Source: Halobacteriales archaeon QS_4_66_20 (GTDB taxonomy: Archaea; Halobacteriota; Halobacteria; Halobacteriales; Haloarculaceae). From it: a stretch of 54,426 bases of DNA. Numbering within the stretch: the stretch's first letter is position 1; every line of letters starts with the position of its first letter. Of this stretch, positions 6,284 through 47,959 are shown one piece after another. A program made the translations under genes and the position numbers. The notes under the pieces are model-generated. The model was not told where the DNA came from, searched no databases, and worked only from the letters and a program-made list of their open reading frames with translations. Where the stretch lies: contig PXRK01000056.1 in assembly GCA_003021015.1 (NCBI GenBank), forward strand, positions 1 through 54,426, written 5' to 3'.

Positions 6284-6393
6284 ATACTGTCGGACGTAAC
6301 TCTGTGTCACATCGTGACACTCTCCTGGCTGTATTCGCACGGTTGAACGGCTGAACGTGACGCGTGACTCCACGAAATTACGTCCGACAGTAT
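6284..6393. repeat. 110-bp inverted-repeat element, copy B
   Basis: The left arm 6284-6299 ATACTGTCGGACGTAA is the exact reverse complement of the right arm 6378-6393. CTCTGT follows the left arm, as in several other copies. The inside also holds a small palindrome (TGTCACATCGTGACA). No open frame is present. The right edge joins directly onto the sugar-dehydrogenase remnant. Confidence 0.85.
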
Positions 6394-6520
6394 CACCACG
6401 GCCGTTGGTGTTGCTGGTGGTGAGGTAGACGTACAGGTACCGGTTCTCCTCGAAGTTGGGGTGGAGCGCGATCCCGAGCAGGCCGCCCTCGCCGAGCAGC
6501 GGCTCGTCCAGGTCGTCGAT
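6394..6520 (-). pseudogene. Remnant of a PQQ-type glucose/sorbosone dehydrogenase (GSDH fold)
   Basis: The minus strand of 6394-6520 translates without a stop to about 40 residues containing EPLLGEGGLLGIALHPNF and EENRYLYVYLT. This is the highly recognisable first blade motif of the GSDH family of secreted sugar dehydrogenases. Full proteins are about 400-450 residues; nothing else of the gene remains. The fragment is boxed between element B (ending 6393) and another arm-like sequence TACTGTCGGACTAGT at 6528-6542. Deletion between repeat copies probably removed the rest. Confidence 0.75.
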
Positions 6521-6527
6521 TCATCGC

Positions 6528-6542
6528 TACTGTCGGACTAGT
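6528..6542. repeat. Partial arm of the 110-bp repeat family
   Basis: Reads TACTGTCGGACTAGT. Its first 11 bases match the arm of element B, and it sits on the far side of the sugar-dehydrogenase remnant. No partner arm was found. Confidence 0.5.
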
Positions 6543-6652
6543 CAGGCGGAACGCCGATAAACGACAGGATAGGGGAGGCTGGCGGCGTTGCGGTGTGAGT
6601 TCCGTTGGCGGGCGGCTATTCAGAGTAGTTTCTGGAGCAGGATTGACCAGCG

Positions 6653-6977
6653 TTTCGAACAGCATGAAAGCCCCGAGGCGCTCGCCGGCTGCGACTCGTT
6701 GCGCTCCTCGCTTCGCTGCGGTGCTTACGTCGTCTCGCTCGGCGAGCGCCTCGCCCCTTTCAGTCCCGCCCGACGTGGCATTCCAGGCCGGGCGGGACTG
6801 AAAGGGGCCGCCTGTTCGATCCATCCCGGACGACGTAAGCACCGCAGTGAGCGGAGTGAACGAGGAGCGCAGCGAGTGTCCCGCGAACGGAGTGAGCGGG
6901 ACGTCGAGAGACGAGCGCAGCGAGTCTCTCGGAACCCGGATGGTCGAACAGGCGGGGGCTTTCATGCTGTTTCAAAC
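6653..6977. repeat. Nested multi-stem palindromic element of about 325 bp
   Basis: At least three nested inverted repeats share one centre near 6780. The outer pair is 6653-6675 with 6955-6977 (23 bp, two or three mismatches; core CAGCATGAAAGCCCC). The middle pair is 6716-6734 with 6829-6847 (19 bp, perfect). The inner pair is 6754-6772 with 6789-6807 (19 bp, perfect, core CTTTCAGTCCCGCCC, 16-nt loop). A further pair links about 6807-6829 with 6935-6955. The right half carries direct repeats of GAGCGCAGCGAG. No gene is supported. The element ends about 75 bp before the PIN-ATPase gene and could affect its expression. Confidence 0.75.
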
Positions 6978-7050
6978 TCCGATACCACATCCGAATACTA
7001 CTACCAGCCAGTATCCGGGGCCTTATCAACGATCACACGAAAGGTCGCAC

Positions 7051-8916
7051 ATGGAACTCGTCCCGGACACGAGCGTGATCATCGACGGGCGGATCTCGGA
7101 GCGGGTCGACGCCGGCGAGTTCGCCGGCGCGACCGTCGTGATCCCCGAGGCAGTCGTGGGCGAACTCGAAGCGCAGGCCAACGACGGCCGCGAGACCGGC
7201 TGGGAGGGGCTCGAGGAGCTCCAGCGGCTGGTCGCGCTCGACGAAGCGGGCGAGATCACCGTCGAGTACGTCGGTCGGCGGCCCGAGGCCCTGGAGAAGC
7301 GTGACGCCGGCGAGGGCGAGATCGACGCGCTCATCCGGGGCGTCGCCACCGACCGCGCGGCGACGCTCCTGACGAGCGACGATGTCCAGGCAGAGGTCGC
7401 AGAGGCAAAGGGGTTCGAGGTGACGTACATCGAACCCGAGACGCGCACGGTCGATGAACTCGCCATCGAGGAGTTTTTCGACGAGGAGACGATGAGCCTC
7501 CACCTCAAGGTCGGCGTCGCGGCGATGGCAAAGCGGGGCAGCGTCGGCGAGATGCGCTACGAGACGATCGGCGAGGAGCCGCTGACCGAGACCGCACTCC
7601 GGGAGTACGCCGCCGATGTCGAGGAGGCGGCCCGCCACCACCCCGAGGGGTTCGTCGAACTCGACGAGCCCGGGATGACGATCATCCAGTACCGCGAGTA
7701 CCGGATCGCCATCGCGCGGCCGCCGTTCAGCGACGGTCTGGAGATCACGGCGGTCCGGCCGATCATCCAGACGACGCTCGAGGACTACGAGTACGCCAAC
7801 GACCTCCGGGATCGGCTGCTCGAACGCCAGCGCGGCGTCCTCATCTCGGGGTCGCCCGGCGCCGGCAAGTCGACGTTCGCCCAGGCGGTCGCGGGCTTCC
7901 TCTCGGAATCGGGCTACGCGGTCAAAACGATGGAGAAACCCCGCGACCTGCAGGTCGGGCCCGAAATTACGCAGTACACCGCGCTGGACGGCCGGATGGA
8001 CAAGACCGCCGACTCGCTTTTGATGGTGCGGCCGGACTACACCATCTACGACGAGGTGCGCAAGACCCACGACTTCGAGGTGTTCGCGGACATGCGCCTC
8101 GCGGGCGTGGGGATGGTCGGCGTCGTCCACGCGACACGCGCAATCGACGCCCTCCAGCGGCTGATCGGCCGCGTCGAACTGGGGCTGATCCCGCAGGTCG
8201 TCGACACCGTCGTCTACATCGAGGCCGGCCAGGTCGCGAAGGTGTACGACGTCGTCACCGAGGTCAAGGTGCCGGAGGGGCTGATGGAGGAGGACCTCGC
8301 CCGGCCGGTGATCATGGTCCGGGACTTCGAGACCAACCGGCCCGAGTACGAGATCTACACGTTCAATCAGCAGGTCGTGACGGTGCCCGTCGGCGACGCC
8401 GACGGCGGGGGCGACGACTCGGGCGTCGACCGGATCGCCAAAAAGGAGATCGAACGGGAGATCCGCTCGGTCGCCCGCGGCCACGTCGAGGTCGACCTCC
8501 GCGGGCCCAACACCGCTGTCGTCTGGGTCGAGGAGAGCGACATCTCGTCGGTCATCGGCAAGGGCGGCGGCCGCATCTCCGACATCGAGGACCGGCTGGG
8601 CATCGACATCGACGTCCGGACGTTCGACGAACGCGAGGGCGGTCGCGGCGGCTCCGGCGGTGGTGCCTCCGGCGGCGGCCCCGGCGCGAGCGTCCGGGGG
8701 ACGGCCGTCACGCCGGAGGGGACCAGCCGCCACGTCGTCATCCCCCTGGACGGCCACGCCGGCGAGACCGTCGAGGTCCAGGCCGACGGCGAGTACCTCT
8801 TCACCGCGACGGTCTCCCGGGGCGGCGAGATCCAGGTGTCCCGCGGCAGCGCCATCGCCGAGGAACTGGAACGCGCGATCGACCACGGCCGGACGATCAC
8901 TGTCGTCCCGTCCTGA
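7051..8916 (+). CDS. PINc-ATPase-KH protein (PINc/VapC-family ATPase)
   Basis: About 621 residues. The N-terminus is a PIN nuclease domain (VPDTSVIIDGR with the first acidic residues; GEGEIDALI and LLTSDD supply further conserved acids). A secretion-type P-loop ATPase follows, with Walker A GSPGAGKST near residue 268 and a Walker-B-like stretch MVRPDYTIYDEVRK. Near residue 500 is a KH domain with the loop IGKGGGRISDIEDRLG, and a small beta domain ends the protein. This architecture is conserved in archaea, and a role in RNA processing or ribosome-linked quality control is inferred. The start at 7051 (MELVPDTS) is chosen because upstream in-frame codons lie in the palindromic repeat. Element D begins 8 bp after the stop. 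Confidence 0.92.
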   Translation: MELVPDTSVIIDGRISERVDAGEFAGATVVIPEAVVGELEAQANDGRETGWEGLEELQRLVALDEAGEITVEYVGRRPEALEKRDAGEGEIDALIRGVATDRAATLLTSDDVQAEVAEAKGFEVTYIEPETRTVDELAIEEFFDEETMSLHLKVGVAAMAKRGSVGEMRYETIGEEPLTETALREYAADVEEAARHHPEGFVELDEPGMTIIQYREYRIAIARPPFSDGLEITAVRPIIQTTLEDYEYANDLRDRLLERQRGVLISGSPGAGKSTFAQAVAGFLSESGYAVKTMEKPRDLQVGPEITQYTALDGRMDKTADSLLMVRPDYTIYDEVRKTHDFEVFADMRLAGVGMVGVVHATRAIDALQRLIGRVELGLIPQVVDTVVYIEAGQVAKVYDVVTEVKVPEGLMEEDLARPVIMVRDFETNRPEYEIYTFNQQVVTVPVGDADGGGDDSGVDRIAKKEIEREIRSVARGHVEVDLRGPNTAVVWVEESDISSVIGKGGGRISDIEDRLGIDIDVRTFDEREGGRGGSGGGASGGGPGASVRGTAVTPEGTSRHVVIPLDGHAGETVEVQADGEYLFTATVSRGGEIQVSRGSAIAEELERAIDHGRTITVVPS

Positions 8917-8923
8917 ACCTGCT

Positions 8924-9034
8924 TTACAGCCAGACGTGCTTCTGTCACGCCATGCCGTGCCACACCCCGTTCGTCGTGGCGTGACACAGTTGATGTACTG
9001 TCGTGGCACTGGACAGAGTCACGTCTGGCTGTAT
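8924..9034. repeat. 111-bp inverted-repeat element, copy D
   Basis: The left arm 8924-8939 TTACAGCCAGACGTGC pairs with the right arm 9019-9034 TCACGTCTGGCTGTAT; 14 consecutive bases are exactly complementary. TCTGT flanks both arms on the inside. An inner inverted repeat (TGTCACGCCA with TGGCGTGACA) adds a second hairpin. The element follows the PIN-ATPase stop and lies 65 bp beyond the 3' end of hisS, so it sits between two convergent genes. Confidence 0.85.
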
Positions 9035-9098
9035 AGGAGACAGTCATCGTTGTCGTCGTTGGAACCTCAGAGCGGACTTTCGGCTGAAGACCGGCAGG

Positions 9099-10403
9099 TC
9101 ATTCGTAATCGTCGAACGTCGGCCGGTCGTAGTCGTCGGGGAACTCCTCGACGGGCACCTGGATCTGATCGCCGCTGTCCATGTCTTTCAGCGTGACCTC
9201 GTCGTTTTCGAGGTCTCGCTCGCCGACGATGACCACGGTTTCGGCGTTGATCGAGTCAGCGTAGTCGAGCTGGGCGCTGAAACTCCGGCCTGCCACGTCC
9301 GTCTCGACAACGTGACCCTCGCTGCGCAGGGTGCGGGCGAGACTCGCAGCCTCGGCCCGGACGTCACCGACCGTGAGCACGTAGTAGTCGGTCGTAAACG
9401 CCTCCTCGGGCCAGACGCCGGCGCGCTGACAGAGCAGCGAGAGGGGGGCGTGCCCGGGTGCGACGCCGACCGCTGGCGTCGGCTGGCCGCCAAAGCCCTC
9501 GATGAGGTCGTCGTACCGGCCGCCGCCGAAGACGGAGCGGGACATCTCGCCCGTCGAGTCGAAACACTCGAAGACGACGCCGGTGTAGTAGTCCAGCCCC
9601 CGCGCGGTCGTCAGCGAGAGGTCGCAGTACTCCCGGACGCCGAAGTCGTCGGTCGCGGCCAGCACCGCCTGGAGGTTCCCGACGGCCGCCTCGACGCGGT
9701 CGGTGCCAGCGAACGCGATCAGTTCGTCGAGGTCCGCCTCGGCAGTCATCAGGAGGTCGTCGAACTCGATCGCCTGCGATCCGGTGAGGCCGGCGTCAGT
9801 CAGCAGCCGGACGTACTCGTCGCGGTCGACTTTCTCGCGCTTGTCGACCGCCCGGATCGCCTCGCGGGTGTCGACGTCGGCGTCGAAGGAGTCGAGCAAT
9901 CCTCCCAGAATGTCCCGGTGGGAGACGCGGAACTCGAAGTCGGACGCGGAGAGCCCGAGGTCGGTGAGCGCGTCGGCGGCGACCGTCAGAATCTCGGCGT
10001 CGGCGGTCGGCTCGCTGGAGCCGAAGATGTCGACGTTGGTCTGGTAGAACTCCCGGAAGCGGCCCTGCTGGGGTTCCTCGTAGCGCCAGAACGGGCGGGT
10101 CGACACCCACTTGATCGGCTTCGAGAGCGCCTGCTGTTTGGCGACGACCATGCGTGCGACCGTCGGGGTGAGTTCGGGCGTCAGCGCCACCTCGCGGCCG
10201 CCCTTGTCCTCGAAGGCGTACAGCTCCTCGACGATCCCCTCGCCGCTTTTCTCGACGTACATCTCCGTCGGTTCCAGCGCCGGCGTTCCGATCTCCCGGA
10301 ACCCGTAGCGCTTGGCCGTCCCCTCTACCGTGTCCACCACCTGCCGTCGCGACTGCATCTCCTCGGGATAGAAATCGCGGAACCCCTTGATGCGCTCGTA
10401 CAT
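9099..10403 (-). CDS. hisS: Histidine-tRNA ligase
   Basis: Class II aminoacyl-tRNA synthetase that charges tRNA-His in the cytoplasm, 434 residues as expected. Motif 1 lies near IGTPALEPTEMYVEKSGEG. ALTPELTPTVARMV and the motif 2 loop WRYEEPQQGRFREFYQ are canonical. The histidine-specific motif is RGLDYYTGVVFE, and motif 3 is GGGRYDDLIEGFGG. An anticodon-binding domain forms the C-terminus. The start MYERIKGFRDF at 10403 is the conserved HisRS start; the longer frame is not. The gene is bracketed by elements D (8924-9034) and E (10432-10541), so its promoter region includes or abuts element E. Confidence 0.97.
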   Translation of the reverse strand: MYERIKGFRDFYPEEMQSRRQVVDTVEGTAKRYGFREIGTPALEPTEMYVEKSGEGIVEELYAFEDKGGREVALTPELTPTVARMVVAKQQALSKPIKWVSTRPFWRYEEPQQGRFREFYQTNVDIFGSSEPTADAEILTVAADALTDLGLSASDFEFRVSHRDILGGLLDSFDADVDTREAIRAVDKREKVDRDEYVRLLTDAGLTGSQAIEFDDLLMTAEADLDELIAFAGTDRVEAAVGNLQAVLAATDDFGVREYCDLSLTTARGLDYYTGVVFECFDSTGEMSRSVFGGGRYDDLIEGFGGQPTPAVGVAPGHAPLSLLCQRAGVWPEEAFTTDYYVLTVGDVRAEAASLARTLRSEGHVVETDVAGRSFSAQLDYADSINAETVVIVGERDLENDEVTLKDMDSGDQIQVPVEEFPDDYDRPTFDDYE

Positions 10404-10431
10404 ACCCCGCCGTTTGAGCAGGGGGCGCTTG

Positions 10432-10541
10432 ATACTGTCGGACGTGAGTACGTGGAGATCTCTACTCTGTAACCGTGCTGAAATGGATGAACACACCGGT
10501 TTGGGTGCCTTGCCGTTCCACAGAGTCACGTCCGGGTGTAT
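10432..10541. repeat. 110-bp inverted-repeat element, copy E
   Basis: The left arm 10432-10447 ATACTGTCGGACGTGA faces the right arm 10526-10541 TCACGTCCGGGTGTAT. Thirteen of 16 positions pair; the mismatches form one block at positions 5-7. ACAGAG precedes the right arm, which is the conserved inner hexamer in reverse. It starts 28 bp upstream of the hisS ATG. Confidence 0.8.
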
Positions 10542-11410: not shown

Positions 11411-11441
11411 GTTACAACGGCTTCTCACGGAGACCGCCGAA

Positions 11442-17263: not shown

Positions 17264-18607
17264 ATGGCCGAGGAAACGGAGACGGAGACGCCGGACCTGT
17301 TCGATCCGTTCCGGCAGTTTTTCTCGTTCAGGCGCGATGTGCTCGTGCTCTCGCTGGCGATGTTCGCGTTCAGCCTCGGCTTCCAGATGACCAGCCGGTA
17401 CATCCCGCGGTACATGTCCGTGCTGGGCGCCGGCGGCCTGGCGATCGGTGCGTTCGGCACCGTCGGCAACATTATCAGTGCAAGCTACCCGTACCCGGGA
17501 GGTGCCATCTCCGACCGTATCGGGTCGCGGTACGCGCTCACGCTGTTCGGGCTGATCTCGAGCCTCGGATTCCTGTTCTGGCTGATCGCGCCGTCGCTGG
17601 GCGCCATCGCCGTCGCCGGCGTCACCATCGAGCCGTGGTTCTGGATCTTCGTCGGCCTCTTTCTGGCACAGGCCTGGAAGTCGTTCGGCCTCGGCGCGAC
17701 GTTCGCCATCGTCAAGCAGTCGGTCCCGCCGTCGCGGCTGGCCCGCGGGTTCGCCAGCACCGAGGTGTTCCGGCGGACAGCGTTTCTCATCGGGCCGCTA
17801 CTTGCGGCGGGCGTGCTCCACGTCGCCGCGGACTTCCAGGTCGGCTTTCAGGTGATTCTCGCCGTCGCGGTCGTCTTCGGCGTCGTCGCGACGACCGTCC
17901 AGCACTACCTTTACGAGGCCGAGGACACCTCGATCGGGAAGTCCTTCGAGGGGGTCGCGGAGATCAGGCGCGACCTCGCGGCGATGCCGGCCGAACTCCG
18001 GCCGCTTTTGGTCGCGGACACGTTCGTCCGCTTCGCTAACGGCATGGTGTACGTCTTTTTCGTGATCGTCGTCACCGAGTTCCTGCAGGTCGGGGTCGAT
18101 CTCGGCACGGTCAGACTGGATCCCGATACGTTCTTTGGCGTGTTGCTCGGCGTCGAGATGCTGATCGCACTGGTGTCGATGCCCGTGGCGGCGAAACTCG
18201 CGGAGTCGGTCGGGCTCAAGCCCGTCGTCGGCTTCGGGTTCTCGGTGTACGCCATCTTCCCTGTGTTGCTCATTCTCGCGCCGGCCAACGCCGTCATCGT
18301 GACGCTCCTCTTTGCATACTCGGGACTACGCTTTGCCGGCCTGCCGGCACACAAGGCGCTGATCGTCGGCCCCGCCGAGCGCGACACCGGCGGCCGCGTG
18401 GCTGGCTCGTACTACCTGATCCGGAACCTGATCGTGATCCCCAGCGCCGCCATCGGCGGGGCGATCTACGACGGGTTCTCCGTCCCCCGCACCGACCTGG
18501 CCTACGCCGGCAGCCCCACGCTCGCGTTCGCCATCGCAACCGTGATCGGCCTGATCGGGACGGTGTACTTCTTCCTGTTCGGCCGCGAGTTCGAGGCCTA
18601 CGAGTGA
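17264..18607 (+). CDS. Major facilitator superfamily transporter
   Basis: 447 residues with about 12 predicted membrane segments in two halves, separated by a charged central loop near residues 215-240 (EDTSIGKSFEGVAEIRRDL). The first cytoplasmic loop has GGAISDRIGSRYAL, the classic GxxxDRxGxR MFS motif A, and FVRFANGMVYVFFV follows the central loop. No signature allows the substrate to be named. ATG at 17264 gives a short acidic N-terminus. The stop codon TGA at 18605-18607 uses the first base of repeat element F, so the element starts exactly at the end of the gene. Confidence 0.9.
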   Translation: MAEETETETPDLFDPFRQFFSFRRDVLVLSLAMFAFSLGFQMTSRYIPRYMSVLGAGGLAIGAFGTVGNIISASYPYPGGAISDRIGSRYALTLFGLISSLGFLFWLIAPSLGAIAVAGVTIEPWFWIFVGLFLAQAWKSFGLGATFAIVKQSVPPSRLARGFASTEVFRRTAFLIGPLLAAGVLHVAADFQVGFQVILAVAVVFGVVATTVQHYLYEAEDTSIGKSFEGVAEIRRDLAAMPAELRPLLVADTFVRFANGMVYVFFVIVVTEFLQVGVDLGTVRLDPDTFFGVLLGVEMLIALVSMPVAAKLAESVGLKPVVGFGFSVYAIFPVLLILAPANAVIVTLLFAYSGLRFAGLPAHKALIVGPAERDTGGRVAGSYYLIRNLIVIPSAAIGGAIYDGFSVPRTDLAYAGSPTLAFAIATVIGLIGTVYFFLFGREFEAYE

Positions 18608-18716
18608 TACTGCCGGCTGTAACTACGTGAAGCGGTCCTGTCCGGAAGGTGAGGTTCTGGACGGTATTCAACCGAATATTGCCGAGGGATCTTGAAAGAA
18701 TTACAGCCGGCAGTAT
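18607..18716. repeat. 110-bp inverted-repeat element, copy F
   Basis: The left arm 18607-18622 ATACTGCCGGCTGTAA is exactly complementary to the right arm 18701-18716. The inner flanks TACGTGAA (left) and AAAGAA (right) are shared with the copy at 36031. Its first A is the last base of the MFS stop codon. Confidence 0.85.
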
Positions 18717-21712: not shown

Positions 21713-21814
21713 AGCCCTGTGGTGTAGTGGCCAATCATAGTGGCCTTTGGACACGTCCGGATTCGCGGATGTGGAAGACAGCCACTGACGCTGGTTCGAA
21801 TCCAGCCGGGGCTA
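21713..21814 (+). tRNA. tRNA-Gln (anticodon TTG) with a 29-nt intron
   Basis: The acceptor stem AGCCCTG pairs with CGGGGCT (one G-T pair), with discriminator A at 21814. The anticodon stem GTGGC (21740-21744) pairs with GCCAC (21781-21785). The loop CTTTGG-A contains anticodon TTG at 21747-21749. The T arm is GCTGG-TTCGAAT-CCAGC. An intron of about 29 nt (21751-21779) separates positions 37 and 38. It contains CACGTCCG pairing with CGGATGTG, giving the bulge-helix-bulge cleaved by the archaeal splicing endonuclease. The mature length is 73 nt without CCA. It lies about 60 bp after the TnpB element. Confidence 0.93.
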
Positions 21815-28333: not shown

Positions 28334-28445
28334 CGGGCTGCATGTCCGGACGTAGCTGATAGCAGCCACTTAACCGTTGTTGTTCCGACCGGTCCGGAAG
28401 CCAGCGACGACGCCCGGTCCGCTGTGCCCCACCCACCACGCCTTT

Positions 28446-28556
28446 GTAGTGATTGTTGTGACTCGTTACCGCCGGGTATTCGCCAGACGCCAGTTTCGGG
28501 TCGTGAAACCGCCGCTACTGCGATGTGGTGCCGAAAATACTCACAACAATCACTAT
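28446..28556. repeat. 111-bp inverted-repeat element, diverged arm type
   Basis: The left arm 28446-28461 GTAGTGATTGTTGTGA pairs with the right arm 28541-28556 TCACAACAATCACTAT; 15 consecutive bases are complementary. The arm sequence differs from the ATACTGTCGGAC type, but length, the terminal ATA, inner GTGA and following CTC are the same. It lies 24 bp upstream of the ferredoxin start. Confidence 0.75.
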
Positions 28557-28580
28557 GATGGCTGCGATCCAACCGCCGGT

Positions 28581-28826
28581 ATGAGAGTCGAGTTCGACCG
28601 CGACACCTGTATCGGCATGTTTCAGTGCGTCCGCGAGTGGGAGGCCTTCGAGAAAGACGAGGCGGCCGGCAAGGCGGTCCTGGCCGACAGCGAGGAGCGC
28701 GAGGACGGCGTCTTCGTCCGCGAAGTCCCGGATTGCGCCGAGATGGACGCGAAGTTCGCGGCCCGCACCTGCCCGGTCGACGCCATCACCGTCTACGACG
28801 ACGACGGCGATCAGGTGATCCCCTGA
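28581..28826 (+). CDS. Small single-cluster ferredoxin
   Basis: 81 residues. Asp-rich and soluble. DRDTCIGMFQCVREW gives the first Cys and a second five residues later, and ARTCPVDAITVYD gives the last Cys in the typical C-P-V motif; one more Cys is in VPDCAEMD. This fits a [3Fe-4S]/[4Fe-4S] single-cluster ferredoxin of the type found next to oxidoreductases. It is an electron carrier of unknown partner. ATG at 28581 begins with the first beta strand (MRVEFDRD). Confidence 0.88.
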   Translation: MRVEFDRDTCIGMFQCVREWEAFEKDEAAGKAVLADSEEREDGVFVREVPDCAEMDAKFAARTCPVDAITVYDDDGDQVIP

Positions 28827-32948: not shown

Positions 32949-35291
32949 ATGGTGATGCACGATAGCTATCCGACAGTTCGGGGTGGCTCACCGGGGGTTG
33001 GTCAGTCGATGATACCGACATTCGATCCGCGGCTGCACGTCGCCTTTCTGGGTGGATCAGCCGTGCTGACCGGCTACTTCGCAGTGTACGCGATCCGGAA
33101 CCGGGACTCGCCCGGCGCGACGTGGCTCGCGGCGACGCTGGCGGCGACGACGCTGTGGACGGCCACCTACGCCGCCGGGCTGGTGACCCACGATCTGTCG
33201 ATCCGCCCGCTGTGGGAGTACGTCCAGTGGATCGGGTCGGCGTTTCTCCCCGTCTGTTTTCTCCTGTTCGCGCTGGAGTACACCGGCCACGACCGGGTCG
33301 TGACCCGCCGGAACGTCGCGCTGCTGTCGGCGGTGCCGGCGCTGGCGGTCGTGCTGGTCTGGACCAGCGAGTTCCACGGGCTCCTGTGGCTCTCGAACGA
33401 GCCGGTCGTCTCCGGCGGGCTGGTGACGATGGACGCCGAGTTCGGGCCGCTGTTCTGGCCGATCCTGCTGTACCTCTACGCGCTGGTGCTGGTCGGCGGC
33501 GTCCTGTTGCTCCGGCTGGCGGTGCTGTCCGACTACCTCTACACCGACCAGTCGATCCTGCTGTTCGTCGGGCTGGCGGTGCCGCTGGTCGGCAACGTCG
33601 CCGCCATCTTCTTCGAGACGTCGCCGCCCGGCTTCGACTTCACCCCCTACGGGTTCGTCGTCTGGGGGCTCGCGCTGACCGCGACGGTGTACCGCAACCG
33701 CCTGTTCCGGCTCGTCCCGGCGACCCGCCGGCTCGGGCGCAGCACCGCCATCCAGCAGCTGGAGGACGGCGTCGTCATCGTCGACGACGAGCGCCGGATC
33801 GTCTACCTCAACGAGGCGGCGGCGTCGATCCTCGACTGTTCGCCCGCCGCAGTCGTTGGCGACGATGTCGACTCGCTGTTAGGCGACCTCGCACTGGAGC
33901 TCGGTCCCGACACGCTCGCCGAGGGCGACGGCGCGACTGCCACGGACAGCGATGTCGCGGCAGTCGGGGCCGAGGGGTCGGTCGTCGGCGACGGGAAGGG
34001 GATCGCGGAAGTCGAGCGCGGGGGCCACTGCTACGAGGTCAGGGCCTCGACGATCACGGACCGCCGCGATCGGCGGCTGGGCCACACGCTCGTGCTCCAC
34101 GACGTGACCGCCCGGAACAGGCGAGAGCAGCGCCTCGCGAGCCAGCGCGACGAACTCGAACGGCTCAACGAGCTGAACAGTGCGATCCGCGGCGTCAACC
34201 AGGCACTGGTGTCGGCCACCTCCGAGGGGGAGGTCCACCGGGCGGTCTGTGAGTCGCTGGCCGACACCGGGCTGTACGCGGCCGCCTGCGGCGCCGATGT
34301 CCAGACCTGGAACGGCGACGCCGACCGCTGGATCTGCGCCGCGGACGACGACCCGACCGAGCCGACGCCCTTGACCACGGTGTCGCTGTCTCCCGATGAC
34401 GGGGAGGAGCGGGTGGCGCTCACGACCGACGCCGGCCCCGAAGCGGACGTCGCGGCCTGGACGGTCGTCCCGATCGTCTACGGCCGGACCGTCTACGGCG
34501 CGCTCGGCGTCCAGTCGGCCGGCGAGGGGGTGTCCGAGCGCGAGCGTGAGATCCTCGTCGAGGTCGGTGAGCTGGTGGGCCACGCCCTGGAGGCGATCGA
34601 GAACGAGCAGTTGCTCTCGACGGAGTCGGTCGTCGAGATCGAACTGGAGAGCGAGGACGAGAACGCGGTGCTGGCGGCGGCCTCGGCCGATGCGGGCTGC
34701 CGGCTCACGCTCGACGGGCTCGTCCCGTCAGTCGACGACGACGCACTGGCGTTCGTCGGTGTCGAGGGTGCGCCCGTCGAGCGCGTCCGCGAGGCGCTCG
34801 CCGACCGCGGTGTCGACGCCAGGACGGTCCGGGAGGGTGACGACGGGGGGCTGCTCGAACTGACGCTCCCGGAGCGGACGCTGCTTGGCACCCTCGACAG
34901 CACGAGCGCGAGCGTGACGAGCGCGAGCGCCGAGTCGGGGGCCGCGACCTACAAGGTGGAGCTGCTCTCGAACGCCGGGGTGCGGCGGCTGCTCGACCGC
35001 GTCGAGGCCGCGTTCCCGGACACCGCCCTGGAGGCCAAACGCGAGCGCACCCAGCCCGCCGAGTCGCTGGTAGGGAGCCTGGCGGAACACGACGACCAGC
35101 TCACCGACCGCCAGCAGGAGGCGCTGGAGGCCGCCTACCGGGCGGGCTACTTCGCCTGGCCCCGCGAGTCGACCGCCGAGGAGATCGCCGAGTCGTTCGG
35201 CGTCTCCCCCGCCACCCTCCACGGCCACCTCCGCAAGGCCGAACAGTCCGTCTTCGACCAGCTGTTCGAGGACGACGACGAACGGGGCTGA
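32949..35291 (+). CDS. 7TM-PAS-GAF Bat-type HTH_10 sensor-regulator
   Basis: 780 residues from ATG at 32949; an internal ATG at 33009 (MIPTFDP) is an equally good start. Residues about 25-250 form seven spans of the histidine-kinase N-terminal 7TM type. A PAS domain follows (STAIQQLEDGVVIVDDERR) with an acidic insertion, then a GAF domain (AVCESLADTGLYAAACG). Next come the Bat-associated region and a C-terminal HTH_10 (LTDRQQEALEAAYRAGYFAW, then GVSPATLHGHLRKAEQ). As in the gene at 2597 there is no kinase domain. It is a one-component membrane sensor with unknown signal. Its stop codon TGA at 35289-35291 shares its last base with a repeat arm. Confidence 0.88.
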   Translation: MVMHDSYPTVRGGSPGVGQSMIPTFDPRLHVAFLGGSAVLTGYFAVYAIRNRDSPGATWLAATLAATTLWTATYAAGLVTHDLSIRPLWEYVQWIGSAFLPVCFLLFALEYTGHDRVVTRRNVALLSAVPALAVVLVWTSEFHGLLWLSNEPVVSGGLVTMDAEFGPLFWPILLYLYALVLVGGVLLLRLAVLSDYLYTDQSILLFVGLAVPLVGNVAAIFFETSPPGFDFTPYGFVVWGLALTATVYRNRLFRLVPATRRLGRSTAIQQLEDGVVIVDDERRIVYLNEAAASILDCSPAAVVGDDVDSLLGDLALELGPDTLAEGDGATATDSDVAAVGAEGSVVGDGKGIAEVERGGHCYEVRASTITDRRDRRLGHTLVLHDVTARNRREQRLASQRDELERLNELNSAIRGVNQALVSATSEGEVHRAVCESLADTGLYAAACGADVQTWNGDADRWICAADDDPTEPTPLTTVSLSPDDGEERVALTTDAGPEADVAAWTVVPIVYGRTVYGALGVQSAGEGVSEREREILVEVGELVGHALEAIENEQLLSTESVVEIELESEDENAVLAAASADAGCRLTLDGLVPSVDDDALAFVGVEGAPVERVREALADRGVDARTVREGDDGGLLELTLPERTLLGTLDSTSASVTSASAESGAATYKVELLSNAGVRRLLDRVEAAFPDTALEAKRERTQPAESLVGSLAEHDDQLTDRQQEALEAAYRAGYFAWPRESTAEEIAESFGVSPATLHGHLRKAEQSVFDQLFEDDDERG

Positions 35292-35306
35292 TACTGTCGG
35301 ACGTGA
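35291..35306. repeat. Solo arm of the 110-bp repeat family
   Basis: ATACTGTCGGACGTGA, identical to the left arm of copy E. The first A completes the TGA stop of the sensor gene. No right arm occurs before the next gene, which starts at 35355, so the element is truncated. Confidence 0.75.
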
Positions 35307-35354: not shown

Positions 35355-36119
35355 GTGAACTGCATCGCCCACCGGGGGTTCGCCGACGCATACCCCGAAA
35401 ACACCCGCACAGCCCTCCGCAAGGCCATCGGGGCGGGCGCGGACGGCGTCGAGGTTGACGTCCGGCGCTGTGGCTCGGGCGAACCGGTCGTCATCCACGA
35501 CGAGACGGTCGACCGGGTGACCGACCGGGCCGGCGCCGTCGCGGCGCTCACCCGGGCGGAACTCGCCGACTGCTCCGTCCTCGGTACCGGCGAGGGCGTG
35601 CCGACGCTGCAGGAGGTCTGCGATCTGCTGCCGGCAGACGTCCGCCTGCACCTCGAACTGAAGGAGGTCGGCGTCGCCGCCGACGCGGCCGCGCTGGCCG
35701 CCGAGTACCCGTTCGACCTGCTGGTCTCGTCGTTCGACCCCGACGCCCTCCGGGCGGCCGCCGGGGGAGCCGACGCCCCGCTGGCGTACCTGTTCGGCAG
35801 CGAGCGCCAGCTCCCGGGCGTGTCGCGGTTCCGCGACGGCCCCGGCGCGGCGCTGCGGACTGCCCAGGAACTTGGCTGTGCGGCGCTGAACCCTCACTGG
35901 CGCCACTGCGACGCGGCGTTCGTCGACCGCGCCCACGACGCGGGGCTGGCCGTCAACGCCTGGACGATCCGATCGCAGGAGGCTGCCGAGGCGGTCGCAG
36001 CCGCTGGCGTCGACGGGCTCATTGCCGACGATACTGGTGGCTGTACGTACGTGAACACTCGAATTGAGAATCCAGGCGGAACGGGTCTGTATCCGCAGAT
36101 AGCAGAGACTGGTGAGTAA
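35355..36119 (+). CDS. Glycerophosphodiester phosphodiesterase with element-derived C-terminus
   Basis: 254 residues from GTG at 35355. HRGFADAYPENT is the active-site start, with the His and Arg of the GDPD TIM barrel. EVDVRRCGSGEPVVIHDETV contains the metal-binding Glu and Asp and the second His, and LHLELKEVG contains a further Glu. The enzyme releases glycerol 3-phosphate from glycerophosphodiesters. The natural end should be near GVDGLIADD. From about residue 227 the frame runs into repeat element G (36031) and reads about 29 unrelated residues to TAA. The enzyme core is complete, so activity is probably kept. Confidence 0.9.
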   Translation: MNCIAHRGFADAYPENTRTALRKAIGAGADGVEVDVRRCGSGEPVVIHDETVDRVTDRAGAVAALTRAELADCSVLGTGEGVPTLQEVCDLLPADVRLHLELKEVGVAADAAALAAEYPFDLLVSSFDPDALRAAAGGADAPLAYLFGSERQLPGVSRFRDGPGAALRTAQELGCAALNPHWRHCDAAFVDRAHDAGLAVNAWTIRSQEAAEAVAAAGVDGLIADDTGGCTYVNTRIENPGGTGLYPQIAETGE

Positions 36120-36140
36120 AAGAATTACAGCCACCAGTAT
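36031..36140. repeat. 110-bp inverted-repeat element, copy G
   Basis: The left arm 36031-36045 ATACTGGTGGCTGTA is exactly complementary to the right arm 36126-36140. It lies inside the 3' end of the GDPD gene, and its last base supplies the final A of the TGA stop of the convergent cobalamin adenosyltransferase gene. Its interior matches the sequence at 52307-52378 closely. Confidence 0.88.
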
Positions 36141-36673
36141 CAGTACGTCGGGTGTTCCTCGGGGACGCCGTCGCGTTTGTTGACCACGCGTGCAAGCGTA
36201 AACAGCGCGTCAGAGAGCCGATTGAGGTAAACCACGGCCGTCTCGTTGGCGTCTGCCTCGGCGGCGAACGCGACCGCGCGGCGTTCGGCCCGGCGACAGA
36301 CCGCACGGGCGTGGTGGAGCCGCGACCCCATAGCGGAACCGCTGGGGAGGATGAACTGTTCCAGCGGGTCGAGTTCGTCGTCGTAGCCGTCGATCATCGC
36401 CTCTAGCTCCTCGACGTGGTCCTCGCGAACCCTGGGGTCGTCCTCGTCGGGCTCGGGGTTGGCGAAGTCCGCCTGCACCACGTGGAGGTGGTTCTGGATC
36501 GCCCGGAGCTGGTCGTCGACGTCGTCGTATTCCGTCGGCCGGACCGCCCCCAGGAGCGCGTTGACCTCGTCGACGCTGCCGTACGCCTCGATCCGCGGGC
36601 TTGCCTTCGAGACGCGGTCCATGTTCCGCAGATCCGTCTTCCCCTCGTCGCCGCGACCTGTGTAGATTTTCAT
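36140..36673 (-). CDS. PduO-type ATP:cob(I)alamin adenosyltransferase
   Basis: 177 residues. The start motif MKIYTGRGDEGKTDL is the ATP-binding signature of the family. SKASPRIEAYGSVDEVNALL, FILPSGSAMGSRLHHARAVC and RRAERRAVAFA with YLNRLSDALFTLARV are the conserved helices. It adds the adenosyl group to cobalamin, the last step of coenzyme B12 formation. The ATG at 36673 begins exactly at the motif; the longer frame is rejected. It is not beside other cobalamin genes here. Its stop TGA overlaps element G by one base. Confidence 0.95.
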   Translation of the reverse strand: MKIYTGRGDEGKTDLRNMDRVSKASPRIEAYGSVDEVNALLGAVRPTEYDDVDDQLRAIQNHLHVVQADFANPEPDEDDPRVREDHVEELEAMIDGYDDELDPLEQFILPSGSAMGSRLHHARAVCRRAERRAVAFAAEADANETAVVYLNRLSDALFTLARVVNKRDGVPEEHPTY

Positions 36674-36727
36674 GTCCGGCCCTCCGCCCGAGACGGACTT
36701 AACAGCGATGGTTGTTCCTGCGACCTG

Positions 36728-36747
36728 ATACTGTCGGACGGCTGTAT
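36728..36747. repeat. Collapsed 20-bp remnant of the repeat family
   Basis: ATACTGTCGGAC (a left-arm start as in copy E) is fused directly to GGCTGTAT, which with the following AGG matches the right end of copy D. The inside of the element is missing. It lies in the gap between the divergent adenosyltransferase and mutS genes. Confidence 0.6.
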
Positions 36748-36790
36748 AGGACCCGCAGTGTTTTAACCGGTGCCGCACAGAGGGTGTTGT

Positions 36791-39493: not shown

Positions 39494-39500
39494 CTGGCCG

Positions 39501-41764: not shown

Positions 41765-41859
41765 ACACGGTCGTGCGCGACTCTGTCACAGGTCAGGGCG
41801 AGAAAGAAACAGTTAACAGTGCTGACGCGCTGAATCCGGGTGGGAACGCACGGCCGCAA
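41765..41859. repeat. Degenerate copy of the inverted-repeat family
   Basis: The left arm 41765-41780 ACACGGTCGTGCGCGA differs at two positions from the copy at 47189, and it is followed by the family hexamer CTCTGT. The facing sequence CGCACGGCCG (41847-41856) pairs with CGGTCGTGCG, nine of ten. The length is about 95 bp, so part of the inside was probably lost. It lies between purL and the S15 gene. Confidence 0.5.
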
Positions 41860-42018
41860 CTCTGACTCGCCGCCCGGTTGGGCGGCTCGGGATTGCGGTA
41901 GTGTCGACCGCCGACCGGCTGCTGTCGTCCGATGATGGGCGGGAGTCGCCCGGTCGGCGGACGCGTCCATCCCGGACGCGACACACACGGCGCGGTCTGT
42001 GCAGTTCCAGCGACAACT

Positions 42019-43641: not shown

Positions 43642-43901
43642 CGGACGACTCGCGTCGTGCGCGGCTCGAAACCTGCCACGGCGACGCGGGAACGGCGCGC
43701 CGGATCGCCGAGGCAGTCCGCCCGGACAACACGACAGAGATGGAGACAGTCCTCAACGACGACCGGATCGTCACGGAGATCAGCCGCGGGACGACCGGTG
43801 GTTTGCAGACGACTGTGGACGACTACGTGGTCAATCTCGCGACAGCGGCACAGCTTGCAACCGCGGACGGGGATCCGTCCACCGACACACACGACACATG
43901 A
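43638..43901 (+). CDS. pcc1: KEOPS complex subunit Pcc1
   Basis: 87 residues from GTG at 43638. AEAVRPDNTTEMETVLNDDR and IVTEISRGTTGGLQTTVDDY with VVNLATAAQLA are the Pcc1 pattern. It is the dimerisation subunit of KEOPS, which makes N6-threonylcarbamoyladenosine (t6A) in ANN-decoding tRNAs with Kae1, Bud32 and Cgi121; those are not in this window. It overlaps the upstream DHH-like gene (GTGA) and the S3Ae gene (ATGA), so translation is coupled across the cluster. Confidence 0.92.
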   Translation: MTDDSRRARLETCHGDAGTARRIAEAVRPDNTTEMETVLNDDRIVTEISRGTTGGLQTTVDDYVVNLATAAQLATADGDPSTDTHDT

Positions 43902-44521
43902 GCGAACGATCAGTCTCACGACAGAAGCAGCAAAAACAGTGGTACACAGTACAGGCTCCCGAGCAGTTCGACAGGGAGAAACTCGGCGAGACGCCAGCCG
44001 ACGAATCGGACAAGGTGCTCGGTCGCACGATCGAGACGACGCTGGGTGACATCCGAAACGACGCCAGCGGCAACAACACCAAACTCACGTTCAAGATCAC
44101 CGAGGTGGCCAGCGACACGGCCTACACCGAGTTCATCAAACACGAGATGACGCGGGACTACCTGCGGAGTCTCGTCCGCCGCGGCTCCTCGAAGATCGAG
44201 GCGTACGTCACGGTGCTGACCAGCGACGACTACCGCGTCCAGATCCAGCCCGTCGCGCTGACGACGAAGTCGGCCGACGAGAGCCAGGAGAAGGCGATCC
44301 GCCGCGAGATGATCGACCTGGTCGAGGACGCCGCCGCCGAGCGGACGTTCGACGACCTCGTCGACAGCGTCGTCGAGGGACGCCTCTCCTCGGCGATCTA
44401 CAACGAGACCAAGACCATCTACCCGCTCCGCCGGGTGGAGGTCCAGAAGCTGACTCTCGAGGCCCGGCCCGAGGAAGTCGCCGCCGAAGAGGAGACCAGC
44501 GTTGACGTCAGCGAGGACTGA
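43898..44521 (+). CDS. rps3ae: 30S ribosomal protein S3Ae (eS1)
   Basis: 207 residues. KQQKQWYTVQAPEQFDREKL, GRTIETTLGDI, HEMTRDYLRSLVRRGSSKIE and YPLRRVEVQKLTLEARP are conserved in archaeal eS1. It is a small-subunit protein near the mRNA exit. The ATG at 43898 overlaps the Pcc1 stop. It ends with an acidic tail. It is last in the translation-linked cluster and is followed by a transposon scar. Confidence 0.97.
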   Translation: MSERSVSRQKQQKQWYTVQAPEQFDREKLGETPADESDKVLGRTIETTLGDIRNDASGNNTKLTFKITEVASDTAYTEFIKHEMTRDYLRSLVRRGSSKIEAYVTVLTSDDYRVQIQPVALTTKSADESQEKAIRREMIDLVEDAAAERTFDDLVDSVVEGRLSSAIYNETKTIYPLRRVEVQKLTLEARPEEVAAEEETSVDVSED

Positions 44522-44550
44522 CCTCGATTCGCGCGTCGATTGACGTTTAG

Positions 44551-44590
44551 CAAGCGGAAGCCTCACCTTTCAGGGCGGGGAGGAAGTCAA
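44551..44590 (+). repeat. Orphan right end of a TnpB (IS200/IS605) element
   Basis: CAAGCGGAAGCCTCACC followed by TTTCAGGGCGGGGAGGAAGT is the typical 3' end (omega-RNA scaffold) of haloarchaeal TnpB elements. No tnpB gene remains, so this is a deletion scar; bases after about 44588 would be its guide. It lies 30 bp after the S3Ae stop. Confidence 0.65.
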
Positions 44591-44651
44591 GCTGACGACG
44601 CAGTCTTTCCGATGCGGCACGAACGACTGGAGTAGCGGCGCTGACGCCCCG

Positions 44652-47048
44652 TCACGTGTTGAACTCGATCCTGGCGACGGTGCCCTCGCCGTTCCGTTCG
44701 AACGCGAGCGTCGCGTCGGAGTAGTCGACCACGCGGTCGACGATCCACAGGCCGGCACCGCTGCCGTGTTCCAGCGCCGACTCGCCGTGTTTGTCGAGCA
44801 CGTCCACCTCGTAGTCCGGGATGCCGGGGCCGTTATCGGTGACTTCCAGAACCACGCGGTCGCCGTTCTGCGAGACGCTGATCTCGATGCGGGGCGTCGC
44901 GTCGGTGGCACCGTGCTCGATGCCGTTCTCGACGAGGTGGTGGATCGCGACCGGAAAGTTGGGGTGGACCAGCACCGAGGGCTCACCTTCGATGTTCGTC
45001 GTGACGTGGGCAGCGGGATACTCGCTTTGAATCTGCATCACGATGTCGTCGACGATTTCGGGGAGCGACAGTTCCTCGCGGCGGTCCCGGTTGGTGACGA
45101 TGTGGCGGATGTCCCGTGCGTGCTCCGCGGTCGACTGGAGGCTCGCGGAGCGGTCGATGATCCGCTGGGCGTTGGCGGCCACCTCGGCGTTGCCCTTCTG
45201 CTGGATCTCCCTGGCGAACCCCTGGATGATCGTGAGGACGTTCCGGATGTTGTGCCGGAGGATGCGGGCGAGCACCTGGTCGAGCAGTTCGAGTTCGCGC
45301 CGCCGGCTGGTCAGCCGCATCGTCGTCTCGACGTTCGCGCTCAGCGTCTCCAGGAGCCGCCGTTCCGGCTCGCCGAAGCTGTCGGTGTACGTCGAGCCGC
45401 TGATCAGCACGCCGAACTCGCCGATCGGGACGACGAGCTCCGACCTGATGACGCTGTCCTCGTTGTGGATCTCGTCGTGCTCGTCGATGTCCGGGACAAG
45501 CCGGATCTCCTTGTCCCGGAACGCCCGCCAGGCGATGCTACCGTCGTCGGTGTACGTCGGAATCTCCTCGAACAGGAACTGTGCCTTCTCGGTCGCTGCC
45601 AGCGGCACGAGCGCGTCCTGGCCCGCGTCGTACTCCCAGATCGCCGACAGCGGCATATCGAGTACATTCGGGATCCGGGACAGTACTGCCTCTGCGACCT
45701 CTTCGTGAGTGTCCGCTTCCAGCGTCTCCCGCGTAACGGCCTGGATCTCTTCCAGCCCCTCAGCACGCTGGGCCCGGTCGAGCGCGGTTTCGACTAGCGT
45801 CGCGAGTAGTCGCAGGAAATCGAGGTCGACCTCGTCGAATGCGTCAGGGTCGAGCGACGAGATCATGAACACGCCGTGTTTCCCCAGCGGCAGAACGATC
45901 AGGCTCCCCACGGGCATCGACCCGTCGGGAAGCTGGCCATCGTATGAGGCCGTGTCCTCGATCATCACCGGCTCGTCCGAGTCGTATGCCTGCCACACTA
46001 TGGTGTCGCGGTCGGTGTATGGCCCCGGCTCACCTTCGAGCTCGGACTCGACCTTCTCGTTGACTGCGACAGGGACCAGCGCCTCCTGGCTGCGATCGTA
46101 GAGGTGGAGGGCGACGATCGAGTCTCCGACCAGCTCCTCGGCCGCTGTCAGCGCCCGGCGACACACCGCCTCGCGGTTGCTGGCCGTGAAGATCCGTTCG
46201 GTTTCGTCGTAGAGCTGTTCGAGCCGGCGCTGCCTGGCCTTCTCGTCGGTGACGTCGACGTACATTGCGACGTGTTCGTGGGCGTCACCGGCCTCGATCG
46301 GCGCTCCCCTGAACAGAAACGTGCCCATCCCGTCTGCCGTCTTCCGCCGAACCTCCCTCGTCATCGTCCGGCCATCCCTGGCGTACTCGTCCAGGGATTT
46401 GGCCTCGTCGCGGGCCCGTTCGTCATCGGGAACGATCACGTCGTTGAGGTTCCGACCGACCACCTGTGAGGCGGGAAAGCCGAACGTCTCCTCGAAGGCC
46501 GCGTTGACCTGCTCGACGGTCGGCTCGCCGTCCCTGAAGACGGTGTGGACGACCGGTTCCTGGATCGTTTCGAACACGGCCTCGAACCGGTTGCGGTCCT
46601 CCCGAAGCGACGATTCGCTCCGCGTTCCGCGGCAGTTCTCCGCGAGTTTCTCGTTGACGGCACTCAGCGAGGCCACCAGTTGATCGTCGAACGTCTCCTC
46701 CTGGCCTGCGAGCACCAGCGCACCGAACAACGGGAGGGCCATCAGGCAGTAGCTCTCCCCTTCGTCCGAGCGGCCGCGAACCGGGAACTGCTGGTCAGGG
46801 GCCAGGTCGTGCAGTCGGTCGATGCCGGTGCTTAGGGCGCTCTCGGGCTCCGGCGTCGCCGGCATCGCCGTGACGAGCTGGTACGTGTCGTCGCTGGCGT
46901 GGTGTTCAAGCACTGCGCCGCCGGTGCAGTCGAGCTGTTCGACGTACGCCGAAAGGGCGCGCTCGACCGTCGCCCGGAGCGTTGTTCCTCGGCCGATCGC
47001 GAGCGAAATCTCGTACACCGCCTCGAGCTGCTCCCTGCTTTCGTTCAT
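44652..47048 (-). CDS. Multi-GAF/PAS histidine kinase
   Basis: 798 residues, no membrane segment. GAF 1 is at about 1-145, PAS at about 150-275 (FEAVFETIQEPVVHTVFRDG), GAF 2 at about 280-430, and GAF 3 at about 435-590. The H-box is LARILRHNIRNVLTIIQGF, with the phosphorylated His near residue 606. The ATPase domain has the N-box HHLVENGIEHGA, G1 VTDNGPGIP and G2 GSGAGLWIVDRVV. A cytoplasmic sensor kinase; no response regulator is adjacent, as is common in haloarchaea. The ATG at 47048 is followed by the helix MNESREQLEAVYEIS. The C-terminus is short, without receiver domain. Confidence 0.92.
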   Translation of the reverse strand: MNESREQLEAVYEISLAIGRGTTLRATVERALSAYVEQLDCTGGAVLEHHASDDTYQLVTAMPATPEPESALSTGIDRLHDLAPDQQFPVRGRSDEGESYCLMALPLFGALVLAGQEETFDDQLVASLSAVNEKLAENCRGTRSESSLREDRNRFEAVFETIQEPVVHTVFRDGEPTVEQVNAAFEETFGFPASQVVGRNLNDVIVPDDERARDEAKSLDEYARDGRTMTREVRRKTADGMGTFLFRGAPIEAGDAHEHVAMYVDVTDEKARQRRLEQLYDETERIFTASNREAVCRRALTAAEELVGDSIVALHLYDRSQEALVPVAVNEKVESELEGEPGPYTDRDTIVWQAYDSDEPVMIEDTASYDGQLPDGSMPVGSLIVLPLGKHGVFMISSLDPDAFDEVDLDFLRLLATLVETALDRAQRAEGLEEIQAVTRETLEADTHEEVAEAVLSRIPNVLDMPLSAIWEYDAGQDALVPLAATEKAQFLFEEIPTYTDDGSIAWRAFRDKEIRLVPDIDEHDEIHNEDSVIRSELVVPIGEFGVLISGSTYTDSFGEPERRLLETLSANVETTMRLTSRRRELELLDQVLARILRHNIRNVLTIIQGFAREIQQKGNAEVAANAQRIIDRSASLQSTAEHARDIRHIVTNRDRREELSLPEIVDDIVMQIQSEYPAAHVTTNIEGEPSVLVHPNFPVAIHHLVENGIEHGATDATPRIEISVSQNGDRVVLEVTDNGPGIPDYEVDVLDKHGESALEHGSGAGLWIVDRVVDYSDATLAFERNGEGTVARIEFNT

Positions 47049-47188
47049 GTATTCATCTCGACACCTGTCTATACGTCGCCACCCCAGAGTACATAGTACC
47101 TATAGGAAGCTACTGGTATACAAATGTGGCGACAATTTTACTATCTGTCTCTTTCAGAACAAATGTGCAATACAGTCGATAAATCGTC

Positions 47189-47299
47189 ATACGGTCGTGC
47201 GTGATTATTTTCAGCACTGGGGCCCAATAGTGTTGGTTTCACGGGTTGAAACGCCCAACACGCGATTCTATAGCGGTACAAAGTTACGCACGACCGTAT
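47189..47299. repeat. 111-bp inverted-repeat element, GTCGTGCG arm type
   Basis: The left arm 47189-47204 ATACGGTCGTGCGTGA faces the right arm 47284-47299 TTACGCACGACCGTAT; 15 of 16 pair and the exception would be G-U in RNA. The inside holds GGTTTCACGGGTTGAAACG, another small hairpin. It lies about 140 bp upstream of the kinase gene and 80 bp beyond the halocyanin gene. Confidence 0.82.
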
Positions 47300-47379
47300 C
47301 AGATCTTCTGTCCGGACGAGTACCTGGGGACGCCGGTCAGTCTGCCCACCGGAGGGCTAGTGGGCTCGGTCGCCAGCCG

Positions 47380-47802
47380 TTACTCACCGCGCTCTACGCG
47401 GACGGTCCCGACCATGCCCGCACTGAGGTGAGGGACGCAGAAGTAGTCGTACTGACCGGGAACGGTGAACTCGTGTTCGAACGTGTCACCCTGTTTCAAC
47501 ACGCCACCGTTGTCGCTTTCCCAGGCCTGCTCGGCCTCGGTCTGGCTGTCGAACCCTCCCGAGGCAAAAAACGACGCATCGTCGGGGTAGGCGTCCTGAA
47601 AGGCCGTGACGGTGTGGCCGTGAGAGCTGGTGTTTCGCCAGGTGACCGTCGTACCTGCGGTGACGGTTAGCTCCTCGGGTCTGAAGCTGTCGATGCTCAT
47701 CCCGACGTCGTACTCGCTGGCCCCGGCGCCACCGTCGAGACAGCCTGCGACGGCGACCGTGGTGCCAGCCCCGACAGTCGCGAGGAACGTCCGGCGATGC
47801 AT
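47380..47802 (-). CDS. Halocyanin-like type I copper lipoprotein
   Basis: 140 residues. MHRRTFLATVGAGTTVAVAGC has a short Tat signal (HRRTFL) and a lipobox Cys at residue 21, so it should be lipid-anchored outside the membrane. The cupredoxin fold carries copper ligands: His in SSHGHTVTAF, Cys and His in YFCVPHLSAGM, and the axial Met at its end. It is an electron carrier in respiratory or redox chains. The partner is unknown. Element 47849-47959 lies 46 bp upstream of the start. Confidence 0.92.
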   Translation of the reverse strand: MHRRTFLATVGAGTTVAVAGCLDGGAGASEYDVGMSIDSFRPEELTVTAGTTVTWRNTSSHGHTVTAFQDAYPDDASFFASGGFDSQTEAEQAWESDNGGVLKQGDTFEHEFTVPGQYDYFCVPHLSAGMVGTVRVERGE

Positions 47803-47848
47803 AGCTGACTCTCAGGATTGGACAGGTATATGGGTCGCGGTTTTTCTC

Positions 47849-47959
47849 ATACTGTCGGACGTGACTCTGTTAGACGTCAGGACAGGATATTTACGAGTAT
47901 CGACCGTGAGACCCCTGATTTGTGTCGAGATGGCGTACCCGAATCAGGCCCAGGTGTAT
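47849..47959. repeat. 111-bp element, copy with degenerate right arm
   Basis: The left arm 47849-47864 ATACTGTCGGACGTGA is followed by CTCTGT, the family consensus. At the expected distance 47944-47959 reads TCAGGCCCAGGTGTAT, which pairs at 10 of 16 positions and resembles the right arm of copy E (TCACGTCCGGGTGTAT). It is located in the divergent gap between halocyanin and ptsH. Confidence 0.6.

Follow-up and report, generated by a model that had tools for sequence, protein, structure and literature searches.

What are the eight short inverted-repeat sites of near-constant length that lie dispersed over this stretch of haloarchaeal DNA, and how did they get there? The stretch is the 54,426-nucleotide window (G000:C56:1-54426), where G000 denotes the window's own genome, a MAG of 2.89 Mb in 86 contigs that is 89% complete. 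A sequence-only reading of the window had proposed either a MITE superfamily or a structured RNA/terminator module. Our results support the former: the sites are very probably non-autonomous DNA transposons (MITEs) of one superfamily that spans several genera of Halobacteria and inserts at TNA with a 3-bp duplication, presumably with the help of a DDE-type transposase acting in trans. Elements of 108-109 bp (77-79 bp in other species) insert and duplicate 3 bp there, also within one another, and insertions lie between genes and, above expectation, exactly in stop codons. We propose that such a transposase would make a 3-nt staggered cut at TNA and that each subfamily of terminal inverted repeats (TIRs) would have been shaped by its own transposase lineage.

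Eight elements in the window

All eight sites were confirmed in the sequence with the positions and lengths of 110 or 111 bp first assigned to them. The outermost A or T belongs to the target and not to the element, and the element proper runs from TAC to GTA over 108 or 109 bp. The eight sites form one superfamily of non-coding elements, and all are given here on the plus strand. Element 1 (6285..6392, 108 bp, TIR TACTGTCGGACGTAA) is flanked on the left by TAA, the stop of ORF 5559-6284, and on the right by TCA, the stop of the minus-strand ORF 6393-6965; both ORFs come from the ORF list only, the gene caller having chosen neither. The element is missing in G010 and G011, where the scar retains the end AGTAT and corresponds to a deletion through the 7-bp repeat GTCCGAC; these loci were therefore rejected as sites empty before insertion. 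Element 2 (8925..9033, 109 bp, TIR TACAGCCAGACGTGA) belongs to a TACA subfamily; most of the other copies in it have TA and not TNA as flanks. Mixed ends are found in element 3 (10433..10540, 108 bp), with TACTGTCGGACGTGA as the left and TACACCCGGACGTGA as the right TIR, and its site is filled in G010 too. Element 4 (18608..18715, 108 bp, TIR TACTGCCGGCTGTAA) lies between two copies of TGA, the left one being the stop codon of ORF 17264-18607, and its site is also filled in G011.

The flanks of element 5 (28447..28555, 109 bp, TIR TAGTGATTGTTGTGA) have decayed to TTG and TGA, while element 6 (36032..36139, 108 bp, TIR TACTGGTGGCTGTAA/C) has CGA on the left and, on the right, TCA as the stop of the minus-strand ORF 36140-36778. 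Element 7 (47190..47298, 109 bp, TIR TACGGTCGTGCGTRA) is flanked by TCA on both sides. Element 8 (47850..47958, 109 bp, flanks TCA/TCG), at first listed with a weak right arm, proved to be a diverged copy of its family, identical at 91 of 114 aligned positions to the complete copy G000:C67:93837-93947. A perfect duplication is kept by only two of the eight elements. A solo TIR (TACTGTCGGACGTGA, 35292..35306, plus strand) follows directly 3' of the TGA stop (35289-35291) of ORF 32949-35291 and continues as TAGTGATT...; it is a remnant, perhaps of a nested insertion. A second solo sequence, TACAGTCAGACGTGA (5567..5581, plus strand), agrees with the TACA subfamily at 14 of 15 positions. Our home-made gene caller placed one call (28377-28826) over element 5 and another (35355-36119) into element 6, and both were taken as spurious.

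Other repeats were met along the way. One further dispersed repeat occupies positions 6625-6975 of the window and contains several palindromes nested in one another (e.g. 6753-6808, 6665-6762 and 6713-6850). Pieces of it match at 77-93% in G000, G001, G008 and G011, and it presumably resembles the palindrome-rich PATE type. Another repeat, L043:2668-2766, measures 99 bp and lies close to where contig C9 ends; it recurs many times in G011, twice at a contig start (C140 and C160).

Insertion at TNA with a 3-bp duplication

In loci assigned to a genome, identical 3-bp flanks were found at 140 of 184 pairs of ends, all of them TNA (TGA 65, TCA 63, TAA 8, TTA 4), part of this set having been preselected by a requirement for T[CG]A or TNA in one flank. 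The selection-free figure is that for G000, where 70 copies of 100-115 bp comprised 50 with identical TNA flanks, 8 with TA/TA and 12 with neither. The wider target consensus is CTNAG, with C before TNA at 64-71% and G after it at 52-57% (77 and 56 distinct sites).

Three comparisons show the 3-bp duplication directly. The element at 87715-87793 of the Halomicrobium plasmid pHmuk01 is absent from the corresponding site of pLC1Hm-01, and the matches of its two flanks overlap there by exactly 3 bp; the insertion hit a stop codon that is re-formed by the duplication. Among six elements on the two Halomicrobium plasmids, this was the one clean free site, a second site was filled in both plasmids and four had no comparable site; the comparison covers, for pLC1Hm-01, the 3 of 12 BLAST places kept by the arm test. 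An overlap of exactly 3 was likewise obtained when a family-3 element interrupted by a nested element (L169:13297-13405) was compared with three uninterrupted copies of the host in G010, and the lengths of nested insertions add up accordingly (221 = 109 + 109 + 3 and, in G066, 218 = 107 + 108 + 3). The target duplications, the filled/empty comparisons and the nested insertions all support the reading as a MITE superfamily. The elements share the general features of MITEs, in that they are short and non-coding, have terminal inverted repeats, occur in many copies and show target-site duplication and insertion polymorphism.

An IS630-like duplication of TA only was considered for the main families and rejected, as the flanks match over TNA; for the TACA subfamily it is possible. 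None of 14 TACA copies had identical TNA flanks, and 8 of the 12 copies up to 115 bp were flanked by TA/TA, so that this subfamily probably uses a different cut. One family-1 element (L008) is also flanked by TA/TA, as an exception to the 3-bp rule.

Distribution across Halobacteria

Within the window's genus, the first search pattern matched in 8 of 18 genomes, with 67 copies in G010, 45 in G000, 25 in G011, 11 in G017, 8 in G008, 4 in G007, 2 in G005 and 1 in G001. A wider but still strict pattern (84-114 bp) matched in 13 of 391 sampled genomes of the class Halobacteria, representing 7 of 86 genera. Copy lengths among the matches listed were 106-111 bp, except in G086 (95 bp) and G153 (93 bp). 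Separate genera hold near-identical copies of their own, e.g. four in G096 that are alike across 80 displayed bases. A second length class of 77-79 bp occurs in the related species G001, G070 and G096 and also on plasmids of Haloarcula, Halomicrobium and Halostella. When six elements were used as queries against plasmids, three gave no match and one a partial match, and the remaining two matched 8 and 4 records. Carriage by viruses was rejected: three scans of viral contigs yielded 41 stretches with a single end-match, taken as chance, none of which had a TSD-matched partner.

The mobilizing enzyme

The observation that the window contains no transposase with such ends stands, and it extends to the 2.02 Mb read (overlaps included; all fetched sequence except viral contigs), which yielded no autonomous partner. 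These 2.02 Mb contain 11 pairs of TIRs, spaced 240-6000 bp and located at 7 places, and every place had at least one end from a complete short element. At two places (L162 and L016) both ends belong to complete short elements; those at L162 enclose an apparently sliding-clamp-like gene. A candidate autonomous unit of 1364 bp (C2:50134-51498) was rejected: its right end is part of a complete 109-bp element, and on the left it follows an ABC-transporter stop codon. Searches for transposase domains gave no match to PF13358 (IS630-type DDE) in G000, an 89%-complete MAG, and one match to PF01609, a 216-aa ORF at C40:59509 without recognizable ends of its own, for which a role as mobilizer is possible but has no support. 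Across four genomes, PF01609 had 44 matches, 30 of them with loci, and such ends were present at 0 of these 30. The defined target and the free site make the search for the mobilizing enzyme concrete.

Relation to known elements

By description, the closest known elements are the small mobile repeats (SMRs) of Haloquadratum, described by Dyall-Smith et al. (2011). In that account, SMR-A of Haloquadratum walsbyi comprises three families of ~110 bp without sequence similarity (HqIRS42, HqIRS43 and HqIRS55) in up to 54 copies, and SMR-B a single family of 80 bp (HqIRS41); they have prominent ITRs, lack a matching transposase and insert into other mobile elements, and their mobilization was called enigmatic in 2011, since neither a duplication nor a mobilizer was known (PMC3119063). 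Our elements share the two sizes, the prominent ITRs, the equal-length families without similarity, the high copy number, the insertion into mobile elements and the lack of a known transposase. That they are SMR-A and SMR-B, the published lack of a duplication being a matter of how boundaries were defined, is thus a serious possibility, to which we give somewhat less than an even chance. The paper states that SMRs make no target duplication and that SMR-A prefers near-terminal palindromes of PATEs or IS605-type elements (PMC3119063), whereas the elements described here duplicate a 3-bp TNA and lie in stop codons and intergenic sites, a comparison made by description only. Moreover, no such element was found in 46,000 of the 46,867 bases of the H. 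walsbyi plasmid PL47. Since the absence of a target duplication does not hold for our elements, membership in the SMRs is not claimed.

Several more distant systems offer partial likenesses. The pneumococcal RUP, ~107 bp long and linked to IS630, has a 2-bp TA target. RUP and the Correia elements of Neisseria resemble our elements in small size, TIRs, intergenic position, mutual nesting and mobilization in trans, but their target is the 2-bp TA, whereas here it is TNA and PF13358 had no matches in G000. The 2-bp TA duplication of IS630-derived MITEs is not seen in the main families and fits the TACA subfamily only. A 3-bp duplication of the TNA/TWA type is made by the IS1031 group of the IS5 family and by eukaryotic PIF/Harbinger MITEs, and in this respect both are similar; IS1031-type ends begin with GAG..., unlike the ends found here, for which no autonomous partner was identified. 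Nesting of RUP, BOX and SPRITE and a 204-bp Correia element are covered in a 2024 review of prokaryotic MITEs, which names Halobacterium and Haloquadratum among the archaea with MITEs and, in the part available to us, does not use the term SMR (PMC10969869). Titles and abstract openings in the open-access literature gave no other account of such elements in Halovenus, Haloarcula, Natronomonas or Halomicrobium, or as haloarchaeal MITEs. MITEs as a kind are known; new, within the literature searched, are the target rule, the landing in stop codons, the mismatch rule for the ends and the occurrence of two length classes across genera. Elements of SMR sizes are now documented from several genera: their 3-bp target is defined, named strains offer a free site, and their landing in stop codons spares genes.

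End mismatch, covarying stems and folding

To compare the two ends of each element, 161 copies were grouped into 28 end-clusters, detection having required agreement between ends at 12 or more of 15 positions. The inverted repeats of ~15 bp have the consensus TACNGNCGGNYGTRA; positions 1-15 agree between an element's two ends in 23-28 of the 28 clusters, while the letters vary between families. Position 16, which lies outside the detection range, agrees in none of the 28 clusters as against 32% expected from composition (p 2e-5 if the clusters are independent, which holds only partly). Agreement returns at positions 17 (21/28) and 21 (23/28), both mostly T.

Of 40 listed elements with a length of ~78 bp, 24 were picked and oriented by eye for an alignment, in which 14 of 25 pairs of the fold, including 8 of 10 pairs of the central stem, showed changes on both sides. 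The covariation score was 0.289, whereas shuffles gave 0.110 and slid controls no more than 0.100; it should be kept in mind that relatedness can beat shuffles and that the structure was read off the same sequences. Folded as single-strand DNA, eight elements gave z values of -3.4 to -8.2. The covariation of the central stem is not explained by binding of the ends, and a plain MITE accounts neither for the covariation of terminal and central palindromes between families nor for the difference at base 16.

Individual copies tell a different story from families. Between element 3 (10433) and its orthologue, 9 of 108 positions differ, among them uncompensated changes in the right arm, and the flanks differ at 11 and 7 of 300 positions; element 4 (18608) differs at 5 of 108 and its flanks at 9/300 and 28/305, as expected of neutral divergence. 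Judging from these sequences, single copies appear to be under no visible constraint by the host. Because they are not visibly kept, upkeep of the fold probably acts at the level of the spreading lineage, through transposition fitness or template-switch correction, and not on each insertion.

Quasi-palindrome correction, in which a polymerase switches templates, is an established mutational process, and it could have produced the covarying arms and central stem of otherwise plain MITEs without any selection on the fold. The lack of any sign of host constraint in the orthologous copies agrees with this explanation. Template switching should, however, also even out position 16, yet the ends differ there in 28 of 28 clusters while positions 17 and 21 mostly agree, and we consider it less likely than not. 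Somewhat less likely still is the idea that the elements are mobilized as folded DNA hairpins, either cruciform or single-stranded, by an undescribed transposase system of Halobacteria. Here a single recognized fold would comprise the 15-bp terminal stem, the covarying central stem and, to distinguish the two ends, an obligatory mismatch at base 16; this fold would join the ends of an element much too short for free bending and thereby fix its length. The mismatch between the ends and the covariation of the central stem provide testable predictions on how such small elements are recognized.

Stop codons and gene context

The genomic context of the MITEs was assessed on 362,905 bases for which genes had been called with our home-made caller; they contain 63 elements of 100-115 bp, of which the 40 with a perfect TGA or TCA duplication were counted. 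In 13 of these 40 the duplication coincides with the stop codon of a neighbouring gene; among the 1791 permitted TSA sites, all outside gene interiors, 156 are stop codons (binomial p 2e-5). Before the count, 3 of the 318 gene calls, each containing an element, had been discarded as spurious, so that the result that no element lies inside a gene is partly built in and not independent.

Annotated plasmids provided further examples, 4 of 9 being located at a stop when orthologues are counted once. The elements at 87715 and 208168 (Hmuk) directly follow the annotated stops of HMUK_RS15915 (87430-87714) and HMUK_RS16410 (ends 208167), the element at 70887 follows that of LC1Hm_RS16315 (ends 70886), and in Haloarcula hispanica HAH_RS18455, as well as in the CBA1115 orthologue, the annotated CDS ends directly 5' of the element. 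The remaining copies lie away from annotated stops: LC1Hm 185139 and 218860, the copy in Haloarcula marina, the other H. hispanica copy along with its orthologue in CBA1115, and Hmuk 119697, where the element and an annotated hypothetical gene overlap. In the simplest reading, insertions into stop codons are harmless and survive because the gene regains its stop through the duplicated TGA or TAA. The bias would then reflect insertions that do no harm and not necessarily a targeting mechanism.

The position of many elements directly 3' of stop codons and their strong hairpins (the z values of -3.4 to -8.2 above) would also suit the structured RNA/terminator module suggested at the outset, taken here as a structured RNA or a bidirectional terminator that the host maintains where genes end. 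We consider this very improbable. Rfam had no match at any element, convergent gene gaps are not enriched (9 of 40 elements vs 65 of 294 gaps, with neighbour orientation as genome-wide), the orthologue of element 3 carries uncompensated changes in its right arm, that of element 4 diverges neutrally, and the elements show 3-bp duplications and nesting. Two Rfam matches lie elsewhere in the window. Positions 41839-41904 match the S15-Halobacteria ribosomal protein leader (RF03143, 74.9 bits), and the 102 bases at 21713-21814, a tRNA match unreported by ARAGORN, are probably an intron-containing tRNA gene.

Length classes

Enrichment of the 110-111 bp length, on which the grouping of the sites had been made to depend, was checked with a pattern on the whole genome and without a motif on 362,905 bases of G000, and it was not refuted. 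A strict two-arm pattern that allowed 102-122 bp found 45 copies in G000, all of 109-113 bp, and none when reversed; the wider strict pattern found 119, again with none in the reversed control. The motif-free scan for inverted repeats gave 70 matches with an outer span, duplicated flank included, of 110-121 compared with 3 in one dinucleotide-shuffled control, a minority of the 70 being ordinary palindromes of coding sequence. Such coding palindromes do reach these lengths, but inverted repeats arising by chance in GC-rich DNA are already refuted as an explanation by both reversed controls and by the target duplications, and can be set aside with virtual certainty.

The length is less strictly fixed than first described. 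In 32 sequences from G000, G010, G011 and G005, 81 of 107 pairs measured 108 or 109 bp from TAC to GTA, with 88 more ends unpaired; shorter copies and the second length class exist beside them. A test for helical phasing of the lengths at 10.5 bp was not significant (p 0.24), a weak test in that the listed lengths 118 and 123 are compound pairs. Copies of 49, 53 and 57 bp (L175:516-564, L185:1889-1941 and L172:2229-2285) have intact ends and a duplicated TNA and are apparently internal deletions of the longer form; one copy in G001 measures only 34 bp (L211:1504-1537). The same genome also holds forms of 128 bp (L204:1504-1631 and L187:1388-1515), in which a hairpin-like insert of ~50 bp occupies the centre of the 78-bp form.
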